A stretch of DNA of 32,516 nt from a virus. The stretch covers positions 1-32,516 of IMG/VR virus record IMGVR_UViG_3300020450_000058. One strand, given 5' to 3'. Position 1 is the first letter of the stretch; each line of letters opens with the position of its first letter. Under the pieces are notes generated by a model that was given only the letters and a program-made list of their open reading frames with translations, did not search any database and was not told the origin of the DNA. The position numbers and the translations under genes are program-made. This document shows positions 29,743 to 32,498 of this stretch, piece after piece.

Positions 29743-31230
29743 CTAGTTATTTGGTGTACTTGTTTCAGTTCCATGTAATACATGAGATGGGTCAGTATGA
29801 GTATGACCAGTTAATGTAATATTAGTTCCACCACCATTCTTGGCTGTTACTTCACTACCAGTTCCACTAAATGTAATTGTTCCTATTCCACTTGATGTTT
29901 GGGTTAACGTAGTTTCAGATGCTATGGTCATTGCAGTAGCAGATTTTAAATTTAATGTTGTTCCAGATTTCAATCCCATGATACCAGATACAGTATCAAT
30001 TGCAACATCACTAAATGCATTGAGTGTAAGTTTACCACCAGTTGTTGCGAGCATGATATCACTCTTTGCCATCAAGTCAAAAGTTCCGTTATTAATTCTA
30101 GTTTCATTTCCCTCTGTAGTTACATCTACATCACCACCAATACGACCTTTAATATTTTCAGAAATGTTAGTGGCAACATTACCTTTTATTTCTTCTTCAA
30201 TATTACCACCACTTTCACCAGCACCAACCTTTCGTCTAAAGTTCTTGTGTATCTTTTGTGTGTAGTTTCCCTCTACTTCTAAATGATAGTCACCCTTTAC
30301 AAGATGACGAACAGTTCCGCCTATTGTAAGATTGACTGCACCAGAAACATAAACATTTGATTGACCCATAATAATCTCAAAGTTATCTCCGATTACTTTT
30401 GTGGTCTTTGTTCCATCTGCTATGATTTCTTCATATGTTCCAGAGGTATGTTGTCGTAAAGTTCTCTCTGCATTTGGTGTGTCATCTATTTCTGTGACAT
30501 GACCAGACTCTGATTCAAATACATGATTGTAAGGATACTCACCAGAAACGTAATCTCCATAACTTTCTGAATCTTCTAAATTATAATCGATATCTTTTGG
30601 GTGAGGTTCATTGAAAGTTCCACGCTCTTCCTCTACTGCACTGTCAGACACAGTTTCCAAAAAAGGCTGTGTTGCAATTGGAATATCAATTTGACGATTG
30701 TCTCGTCTTTCAATTAATTTAAAATGTTCCTCTGAAGTTTCACCTTGTGCAAGTCTACTTGTATCCGACTCTCCTATATCATGTCCTGATGGCACTGTGT
30801 TTAAAAATCCATCTACTGGATATGGCCCATATACTGGAGTGCCGGCATAATCATCCTGAGCATTTGGATTAGAACTACGAGGGTCATTAAATCCTTTTGT
30901 TGGGTCTGGTGGCGATTCTGGAATGCCAGGCAGACTACCAATAATTATCGGTGATTGTTTTTCTTTTGCATCAGCGAAGAAACCCACGACCCAAGTTCCC
31001 TCAACAAGAAAAGATGGTGTCTGACCTAAACCTTGCATAGATGGACTTGTTGTTGGAGCCATAACAGTAGCCCACGGCAAATCCACTGTGGGAATATCAT
31101 TTAAATCCTCTGTATGAAATCCAAGACAACGAACACGAACACGACCTAAAGCGTCTGGGTCATTTCTATCTTCAACGACACCAGTAAACCAAACAAAACC
31201 ATCAAGGCCCATAAAATAATTTTGAGACAT
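29743..31230 (-). CDS. gp5: Baseplate hub/needle protein gp5, without lysozyme domain (495 aa)
   Basis: Residues 14-100 are the gp5 OB-fold: WFTGVVEDRNDPDALGRVRV matches T4 WFVGVVEDRMDPLKLGRVRV; LPWATVMAPTTSPSMQGLG also matches. Residues 230-270 (GEYPYNHVFESESGHVTEID, SGTYEEI) match T4 GEYPYVHTMETESGHIQEFD. After this come repeated VEGN/VKGD/IGG units of the triple-stranded beta-helix spike. T4 gp5 is 575 residues with a central lysozyme; here about 130 unrelated residues (100-230) link the two parts. Near the C-terminus TGHTHTDPSH (474-483) could bind metal at the spike tip. A late promoter lies 19 nt upstream and an AAGGAG box 6 nt before the ATG. Confidence 0.93.
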   Translation of the reverse strand: MSQNYFMGLDGFVWFTGVVEDRNDPDALGRVRVRCLGFHTEDLNDIPTVDLPWATVMAPTTSPSMQGLGQTPSFLVEGTWVVGFFADAKEKQSPIIIGSLPGIPESPPDPTKGFNDPRSSNPNAQDDYAGTPVYGPYPVDGFLNTVPSGHDIGESDTSRLAQGETSEEHFKLIERRDNRQIDIPIATQPFLETVSDSAVEEERGTFNEPHPKDIDYNLEDSESYGDYVSGEYPYNHVFESESGHVTEIDDTPNAERTLRQHTSGTYEEIIADGTKTTKVIGDNFEIIMGQSNVYVSGAVNLTIGGTVRHLVKGDYHLEVEGNYTQKIHKNFRRKVGAGESGGNIEEEIKGNVATNISENIKGRIGGDVDVTTEGNETRINNGTFDLMAKSDIMLATTGGKLTLNAFSDVAIDTVSGIMGLKSGTTLNLKSATAMTIASETTLTQTSSGIGTITFSGTGSEVTAKNGGGTNITLTGHTHTDPSHVLHGTETSTPNN

Positions 31231-31232
31231 GC

Positions 31233-31252
31233 ATAACTCCTTACAGAGTTAT
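31233..31252 (-). promoter_or_regulatory. Inverted repeat covering the gp5 ribosome binding site
   Basis: On the minus strand ATAACTC (31252-31246) and GAGTTAT (31239-31233) pair over 7 bp with a 6-nt loop. The AAGGAG box of gp5 lies in the loop and 3' arm. The 5' arm overlaps the last bases of the TATAAATA promoter, so mRNA begun there should lack most of it. The stem is AT-rich and of modest strength. Confidence 0.5.
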
Positions 31253-31257
31253 TTATA
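31250..31257 (-). promoter_or_regulatory. T4-type late promoter (TATAAATA) for gp5
   Basis: There is an exact TATAAATA on the minus strand, 19 nt before the gp5 ATG. Using the usual T4 geometry, transcription would start near bases 31244-31245, just before the AAGGAG box. Confidence 0.78.
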
Positions 31258-31262
31258 AAGAA

Positions 31263-31478
31263 TTATTTAAGTTTCATGTAAGTAAGATTTGGAAGTTTCT
31301 TATCTTTCACCAATCGTCTTATTTTTCTTTTAGGCTCTTTTACGTTATATTTTTCTAGCTCGTACACGAGTTCTTCATCATTATTATTGTCATTTAAATC
31401 GGAAAGTACTTTTCGGGCTTCAACTAATTTCAAATCTTTGTGAAGAACTTGCTTAGAGCAAACTCTATATTTGACCAG
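31263..31478 (-). CDS. Small basic protein with probable CTG start (71 aa)
   Basis: An open frame of 71 codons runs from CTG (31476-31478) to TAA (31263-31265). It reads (M/L)VKYRVCSKQVLHKDLKLVEA, then an acidic NDNNNDEE stretch, then a basic KEPKRKIRRLVKDKK end. AGGAG lies exactly 7 nt before the CTG, and a TATAAATA late promoter stands upstream. No ATG, GTG or TTG in this frame lies near that box; the only in-frame ATG is four codons from the end. Codon content looks coding (AGA/CGA Arg, A/T-ending codons). Function unknown; the charge pattern would allow nucleic-acid or virion binding. It fills an otherwise empty 290-bp stretch before gp5. Confidence 0.6.
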   Translation of the reverse strand: MVKYRVCSKQVLHKDLKLVEARKVLSDLNDNNNDEELVYELEKYNVKEPKRKIRRLVKDKKLPNLTYMKLK

Positions 31479-31481
31479 TTT

Positions 31482-31508
31482 AAATCTCCTTTATAAGTTT
31501 GGAAATTT
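31482..31508 (-). promoter_or_regulatory. Inverted repeat covering the ribosome binding site of the CTG-start gene
   Basis: On the minus strand AAATTTCC (31508-31501) pairs with GGAGATTT (31489-31482): 8 bp including one G-U, with an 11-nt loop. GGAG is the ribosome binding site. The 5' arm starts directly after TATAAATA (31516-31509), so a transcript begun at this promoter would keep only part of it. Confidence 0.45.
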
Positions 31509-31516
31509 TATTTATA
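31509..31516 (-). promoter_or_regulatory. T4-type late promoter (TATAAATA) between tRNA-Arg and the CTG-start gene
   Basis: There is an exact TATAAATA on the minus strand, 5 nt after the encoded CCA end of the tRNA and 30 nt before the CTG. Confidence 0.75.
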
Positions 31517-31521
31517 CAAAT

Positions 31522-31599
31522 TGGCCTCTCCAGCAAGACTCGAACTTGCGACCTACTGCTTAGAAGGCAGTTGCTCTAATCCAACTGAGCTATGGAGAG
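31522..31599 (-). tRNA. tRNA-Arg (anticodon TCT), CCA end encoded
   Basis: A full cloverleaf can be drawn on the minus strand: acceptor CTCTCCA/TGGAGAG (7 bp), D arm GCTC/GAGC, anticodon stem ACTGC/GCAGT with loop CTTCTAA, T arm GCAAG-TTCGAGT-CTTGC, discriminator G and encoded CCA (31524-31522). The anticodon TCT (31564-31562) reads AGA and AGG. AGA is a frequent Arg codon in the phage genes here, so the tRNA probably supports late protein synthesis. The first base (31599) directly follows the stop codon of the oxygenase gene (31600-31602). Confidence 0.95.
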
Positions 31600-32118
31600 T
31601 TATATTTCTTGTAATCCTATATTCCCTGCTATCATAATTCGTTTGTCTTCACACGAACATGGCGGTACTAAATGTTTGGCAAGTGATGAGAAGATAACCA
31701 ACTCACCCTCTTTAGGTTCAAATATGATATTTGATTCTGGAAAGACTAAAGGACTAGAGCCCTCTGGCGTTTTGACATAGTAACACCACGACCATAGATA
31801 TGGCCAGTGATTATGTACTTTAGTTTCTTGACCTTTAGTATAGACAGCACCCCAACACTCGGAAGTGTAAAGAGGTACTTTTGTTTTTACAATATCTTTG
31901 GCGACCATAAGAACAGTATCAGACAACGCCTTAAACTCTGAATTAGTTTTATGTGTAGTCCAGTTCGTCATGGTTGCTTTGACATTTGTAGTGTGTTTCA
32001 TTTCGTCTCGCTGCGAAAGTAGATAATTCTCTAGATTATTTTTCAGAGTGCTACCAATATCCAAAGAGGTTTCATAAACTGGAAGCCTCATCAAAAAATC
32101 ATAGTAGTTTGTTTTCAT
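31600..32118 (-). CDS. 2OG-Fe(II) oxygenase family protein (172 aa)
   Basis: The C-terminal half has the double-stranded beta-helix pattern of the phage-common 2OG-Fe(II) oxygenases (PF13759-like): VHNHWPYLWSWCYYV gives H102-x-H104 as proximal metal ligands, EGELVIFSSLAKHLVPP gives distal H149, and R160 in DKRIMIAGN is placed to bind 2-oxoglutarate. The second ligand is His rather than the usual Asp. Such enzymes hydroxylate proteins, nucleotides or small molecules; the substrate here is unknown. They are frequent in marine T4-like phages. A GGAG box lies 5 nt before the ATG. The stop directly abuts the tRNA. Confidence 0.82.
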   Translation of the reverse strand: MKTNYYDFLMRLPVYETSLDIGSTLKNNLENYLLSQRDEMKHTTNVKATMTNWTTHKTNSEFKALSDTVLMVAKDIVKTKVPLYTSECWGAVYTKGQETKVHNHWPYLWSWCYYVKTPEGSSPLVFPESNIIFEPKEGELVIFSSLAKHLVPPCSCEDKRIMIAGNIGLQEI

Positions 32119-32288
32119 GTTATCTCCAAATGCCTTCGGTCGCGAAACGCGGGCTAAATCTAAAATCGACTATAGTAACTTCAAGTCTATTGCCCCTGCA
32201 CTCAAAGGTGTTAGTGGACTCATCATATATTTACGATACTTGTAATCTCTCTCAAACAAGATTATCGCCTATTTCGATTTTATTCATC
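32119..32288 (-). pseudogene. Possible broken small gene between the lipoprotein-like gene and the oxygenase
   Basis: An ATG (32286-32288) overlaps the end of the upstream gene and opens MNKIEIGDNLV, then TGA. In the same frame a TAA follows 24 nt later. After it the frame is open for about 36 codons (YDESTNTFECRGNRL, then VTIVDFRFSPRFATEGIW) up to a TAA next to the oxygenase ATG. Between the two stops the +1 frame reads ERDYKYRKY. A +1 and a -1 shift would join all three into one protein of about 56 residues. It may be a decayed gene, a double sequencing error, or chance. Confidence 0.3.
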
Positions 32289-32498
32289 ATACCATAAACA
32301 TTGCCAGTTGTCAAGAGCGTGGCATTTATTATATGCCATCTTTCCGTAATGTACTCCAACTTCTAATGTCGTACAACTTGACAAAAACAGAATGCATAGT
32401 AGTATAAAACTTATTAATATATATTGTAACTTGTTAGACCTTATCGGTTCTATCTTACAAGCCTCTTCAAATTCTTTGTATCTATCTTCCATCATCAT
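32280..32498 (-). CDS. Small membrane or lipoprotein-like protein (72 aa)
   Basis: A charged N-terminus (residues 1-24) is followed by one hydrophobic segment (YILISFILLCILFLSSC, 26-42). L39-S40-S41-C42 fits a lipobox, so the protein could be cleaved and lipidated, although the N-terminal charged part is long for a signal peptide. A plain signal anchor is the alternative. The short outer part (43-72) has two Cys (59, 67) that could pair. Three ATGs stand in a row at the start; the first is used here. The ribosome binding site is weak. Function not recognised; small lipoproteins in phages can be outer-membrane spanins or superinfection factors, but nothing here proves either. Confidence 0.6.
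   Translation of the reverse strand: MMMEDRYKEFEEACKIEPIRSNKLQYILISFILLCILFLSSCTTLEVGVHYGKMAYNKCHALDNWQCLWYDE

Follow-up and report, generated by a model that had tools for sequence, protein, structure and literature searches.

A leader hairpin as a probable late-only translation switch at the baseplate hub gene gp5 of uncultured marine T4-like phages

Is gp5, the baseplate hub gene of an uncultured T4-like phage, translated from late transcripts only? The question is raised by two neighbouring units in a 32.5-kb piece of such a phage (an IMG/VR record; the whole stretch of 32,516 nucleotides is called the window here). In each of them, an earlier note had described an inverted repeat that could pair the Shine-Dalgarno (SD) sequence with bases at or just after a late promoter and hide it in all but late transcripts. 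A late-only mechanism of this kind has been demonstrated for T4 gene e, the lysozyme gene, with a 100-fold effect (PMC3014915), and similar leader hairpins are found at T4 soc, 49, I-TevI, and segB and at Aeh1 mobE (PMC3014915, PMC2988022). Judged from sequence and computation, the gp5 leader appears to be a late-only translation switch of the gene-e type, a reading that is given a probability of roughly 0.8.

The main genes of the window are located on the minus strand, as are all features of the window described below. Toward gp5, the order comprises an early-type promoter, a 2OG-Fe(II) oxygenase gene (31600-32118, in the same direction as gp5), a tRNA-Arg(TCT) gene (31522-31599), a late promoter, a 71-aa small ORF with a CTG start (31263-31478), a second late promoter, and gp5 (29743-31230), with gp25 and gp6 farther along. 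An OB domain and a trimerisation domain were detected in gp5, a domain search found no lysozyme domain in it, and no gp5 relative above 60% identity occurs in the phage isolate collection. The small ORF is conserved immediately upstream of gp5; in one relative (L013:1997-2258), three tRNA genes (Arg, Ile, and Leu) are found directly upstream of gp5, replacing the small ORF. In an Rfam scan, the gathering score was reached by the tRNA alone. Both late promoters read TATAAATA, one for the small ORF (31509-31516) and one for gp5 (31250-31257), the latter standing 19 nt ahead of the gp5 ATG. According to the T4 late promoter rule, in which the box runs from -13 and lies about one helical turn ahead of the start (PMC2988020), late RNA is predicted to begin near 31503 and near 31244, respectively.

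Both inverted repeats are present where the earlier note had placed them. At gp5, ATAACTC (31252-31246) can pair with GAGTTAT (31239-31233) in a 7-bp stem with a loop of 6; ahead of the small ORF, AAATTTCC (31508-31501) can pair with GGAGATTT (31489-31482) over 8 bp, including one G-U. As the main gp5 structure, the 7-bp stem was rejected, for it is suboptimal and its 5′ arm is unconserved in a sister clade, where ACTC is changed (ACAC, ACAT, ACAG, or ACAA) and the longer hairpin is kept. The minimum-energy fold is a hairpin of 13 pairs, in which a 5′ arm, AUAAUUCUUUAUA (31266-31254), is joined to a 3′ arm, UGUAAGGAGUUAU (31245-31233), with a centroid energy of -10.6 kcal/mol. The 3′ arm holds the Shine-Dalgarno AAGGAG (31242-31237) and is used by both stems, which are therefore mutually exclusive (the 5′ arm of the 7-bp stem spans 31246-31252). 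A short stem with the geometry of the 7-bp stem was found in L081, L085, L222, L240, and L243. Most of the 5′ arm of the long hairpin precedes the late promoter, and only the first four bases of TATAAATA fall within it, so that the promoter occupies the upper stem and the loop, and the stop codon of the small ORF (31265-31263) sits inside this arm. When truncated to begin at 31244, where late RNA is predicted to start, the leader fails to fold the 13-bp hairpin. The gp5 half of the earlier observation is real, and it is stronger than first thought.

A hairpin that stands at a gene boundary, as this one does, might serve as a transcription terminator or as an RNA-processing site. It is followed by GCAUGUC, that is, without the U-run of an intrinsic terminator, and was not called as a terminator, and its stem is short by RNase III standards; this is the least probable of the readings weighed here. 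Its arms might also pair by chance, given that the sequence is AT-rich and that promoter and SD, which inherently share some complementarity, are fixed. The window by itself gives this explanation some room, as its z-score is moderate: flank shuffles of its gp5 leader match the observed hairpin energy in 2 of 100 cases, and whole-leader shuffles fold equally well in 8 of 200, which makes the window alone only moderately unusual. What decides against chance is the comparison with other late genes and with relatives.

For this comparison, late units, defined as TATAAATA followed by an SD and an ORF, were gathered from the window and its relatives. The free-energy cost of opening the SD was then computed for two RNAs per unit, one extending 45 nt beyond the promoter on its 5′ side (read-through RNA) and one beginning at the predicted late start. 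In the gp5 leaders of relatives, the cost has a median of 8.3 and a mean of 8.9 kcal/mol in read-through RNA and a mean of about 0.8 kcal/mol in the predicted late RNA. The corresponding values are 1.95 and 1.34 for gp25 leaders, which are served by the identical promoter within these genomes and so provide an internal control, and 4.1 and 0.94 for small-ORF leaders. A cost of at least 5 kcal/mol in read-through RNA is reached by 39 of 40 gp5 leaders versus 2 of 53 gp25 leaders, the median drop from read-through to late RNA is 7.4 for gp5 versus 0.2 for gp25, and gp5 exceeds gp25 in every contig that has both genes (28/28). Flank shuffles in which promoter and SD are kept give 4.0-5.1 for gp5, and the number of leaders that beat such shuffles at the 0.05 level is 24 of 40 for gp5, 3 of 53 for gp25, and 3 of 19 for the small ORF. 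When 235 kb of sequence from six relatives was scanned together with the window, a single strong outlier emerged among the late units, namely gp5, whose leaders span 6.3-11.8; those of the small ORF span 2.3-5.3, and no other late unit exceeds 4.6. The window's gp5 requires 10.8 kcal/mol in read-through RNA and 1.4 in late RNA, similar to T4 gene e under the identical measure (11.9 and 2.1). Across relatives, the gp5 hairpin is far beyond chance: it is not seen at gp25 and other late genes that share this promoter and SD, and the gp5 pairing beats both flank shuffles and flank swaps across lineages. Chance pairing is left with a very slim probability.

With regard to conservation, nearly all of 33 distinct SD-bearing gp5 leaders form a hairpin in which some or all of the SD is paired, the exceptions being L014, which lost the hairpin, and L038, which is truncated. 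The arms take different forms, such as a 14-bp stem with one G-U in L023, UAGACU and CCUUA paired around a 2-nt bulge in L015, UAGUUAG with CUAACUA in a different register in L016 and L011, AUAGACUCCUUA/UAAGGAGUCUAU in L152 and L153, and an extra second stem inside in L100 and L110. Two geometries occur: the 5′ arm is located upstream of the promoter in the majority of leaders, or it begins within TATAAATA (L075, L081, L085, L097, L098, L222, L240, and L243) and then resembles the 7-bp stem. Because lineages pair in shifted registers, a fixed-column covariation count on a MAFFT alignment (A3) was weak and did not clearly beat shuffles (36/500), and an arm-swap test was used in its place. When 5′ flanks were swapped between gp5 leaders, the mean energy fell from 8.9 to 7.4, and none of 20,000 permutations was as high as the observed value; the count was 4 of 20,000 with 14 representatives below 80% identity and weakened to 856 of 20,000 with 7 representatives below 70% identity, all of these swap, shuffle, and covariation tests being inflated to some degree by kinship among the sequences. 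The earlier note had made its proposal depend on arms that are conserved or co-vary in relatives; with the correct arms, they differ between lineages yet still pair, and the structure appears to be conserved with its pairing maintained.

The loop, AAUAACUC (31246-31253), brings in a further explanation, in which the gp5 hairpin is an operator recognised by a phage RNA-binding protein, for example the DNA polymerase gp43. Exactly these 8 nt form the loop of the leader hairpin at T4 gene 43, AGCCU-AAUAACUC-GGGCU, and they include -UAAC-, the operator loop core in T4 and RB69 (PMC3014915), which was counted in favour of an operator. However, the stem differs, the loop is different in many relatives that keep the hairpin, and the match was noticed after the fact. 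It is probably a coincidence, because the AAUA of the loop derives from TATAAATA itself, and an operator at this place is considered highly unlikely.

In the proposed late-only switch, RNA from the early-type promoter would read through the oxygenase gene, the tRNA gene, and the small ORF and carry both gp5 arms; this read-through RNA would fold the 13-bp hairpin, bury the gp5 Shine-Dalgarno, and be blocked for gp5 translation. RNA from the local late promoter, provided that its start follows the T4 spacing, is predicted to lack the whole 5′ arm, which would leave the SD open and allow gp5 to be made only late, so that no hub protein would appear ahead of assembly. The likely source of the read-through RNA is a candidate sigma-70 promoter of the early type, TTGACA-17-TATGAT with an extended -10 (32286-32314), which is the best sigma-70-like site of the region and is located about 170 nt ahead of the oxygenase start. 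A nearly identical promoter sequence is found in L006, L009, L013, L015, and L032, and several relatives that are more distant have a perfect TTGACA-17-TATAAT ahead of gp5. Since the promoter is conserved and no terminator-like site was found on this strand between it and gp5, early read-through is likely. The gene-e logic of the earlier note is well supported in silico for gp5 by the energetics, the control late genes, the co-changing arms, and the conserved early-type promoter upstream, although the arms that had been assigned to gp5 are not the main structure.

The main rival to such a switch is translational coupling, which holds that gp5 translation depends on ribosomes finishing the upstream ORF, with dosage or order as the outcome instead of late-only expression. 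In most leaders, the upstream ORF ends in a stop codon within or beside the 5′ arm, and finishing ribosomes could open the hairpin. On the other hand, the upstream gene varies (the small ORF, the oxygenase gene, or another ORF), and in L013 a tRNA is directly upstream; moreover, coupling would have no use for a late promoter within the hairpin, and a sister clade without SD or hairpin nevertheless has its late promoter tightly placed. Coupling is thus regarded as unlikely, and it may coexist with a timing role of the hairpin.

A further scan yielded 31 distinct gp5 leaders of that sister clade, without SD and hairpin (e.g., L106, L086, L181, L189, and L091), in all of which TATAAATA stands close to the ATG, at a spacing of 5 nt in 8, 6 nt in 21, and 7 nt in 2. 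Such a spacing of 5-7 nt is present in none of 66 gp25 leaders. Leaderless mRNAs occur in bacteria, archaea, and some phages, and the sister-clade gp5 would resemble them in that, judged by spacing only, its SD-less late RNA is predicted to begin at the AUG or 1-2 nt before it. Both gp5 arrangements would leave the local late RNA as the sole good template, an independent argument for late-only expression, and the gp5 tree calls for at least two changes between the hairpin state and the SD-less state. By a slight lean of the evidence, gp5 would be kept from read-through translation across a large branch of uncultured marine T4-like phages by one of two exclusive solutions, namely an SD-hiding hairpin that is removed by the late promoter or a leaderless start without SD. 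In L160:4905, a 185-aa ORF of unknown function has TATAAATA 5 nt ahead of its ATG and no SD, and it is a possible second leaderless late gene.

Like members of the T4 gene e group, gp5 has the late promoter TATAAATA beside its ribosome binding site and a hairpin in the longer RNA that pairs the SD, and as with gene e itself, the predicted late RNA is without the 5′ arm. It differs from the group in that the hairpin is carried by the baseplate hub gene, which is unnamed in this connection in PMC3014915 and PMC2988022, in that the phages, a widespread group, are uncultured and marine, and in that the arms have diverged over many lineages and the function is predicted here. The split ribosome binding sites of T4 gene 25 and gene 38 likewise involve RNA structure where a late tail gene begins (PMC3014915); there, the structure separates the SD from the AUG and promotes translation, whereas the gp5 hairpin contains the SD and should block it. 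According to the leader energies, gp25 of the present phages has no SD-hiding hairpin. In T4 and KVP40, the start of gp5 lies within the late gene ahead of it or immediately behind that gene, and no separate promoter for gp5 was seen; the promoter-hairpin leader is absent at gp5 of both these phages and of Pelagibacter phage Mosig. Searches of the open-access literature found no description of leader hairpins at gp5 or of leaderless late genes in T4-like phages. The gp5 leader would represent a known type of switch, one that works like that of T4 gene e and sits on a new gene, in phages that lack close relatives in culture, and would extend a classic T4 device to an essential structural gene with comparative support beyond one sequence. 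That one clade has the hairpin and another a predicted leaderless start suggests that the timing of hub synthesis is under a common pressure; if both solutions indeed keep gp5 from read-through translation, early hub protein would be generally harmful to these phages, and leaderless initiation could be a timing device. As a rule for reading such genomes, a late promoter inside a hairpin, or one 5-7 nt before an ATG without SD, would mark likely translation from late transcripts only. In L097 and L098, the gp5 leader has two tandem TATAAATA boxes, like the two late promoters of T4 gene e.

The second unit, for which the earlier note had proposed the same switch, shares the layout of the first, but its stem is weaker than that of gp5 in every test. 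The 5′ arm (31501-31508) pairs with a 3′ arm (31482-31489) that contains GGAG, and the start codon (31476-31478) is CTG, kept as CTG or TTG in relatives. An ATTTCC/GGAGAT stem is kept in 14 distinct small-ORF leaders, with 96.4% paired cells versus 92.3% in shuffles (4/500) and at most 65.5% when slid; U-to-C changes in L020 and L032 convert G-U to G-C, and the loop varies. The energies are modest, and for the leader in the window they are matched by 12 of 100 shuffles. Support for this hairpin beyond chance across relatives is modest, and the small ORF probably carries a weaker version of the gp5 switch. Since the small ORF ends with a stop codon inside the gp5 5′ arm, its early translation would tend to open the gp5 hairpin; joint repression of the small ORF and gp5 would be sensible. 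Pairings of the upstream flank were also considered for the CTG-start gene, TTTGTATA/TATACAAA in L015 and L024 and CTTTACTTG/CAAGTAAAG in L028, and were rejected as lineage-specific and absent from the window. In the diverged relative L170, near 11484, the small ORF begins with ATG at the matching place, and the small-ORF leaders of L002, L016, L017, and L018 have the late promoter variant TCTAAATA instead of TATAAATA.
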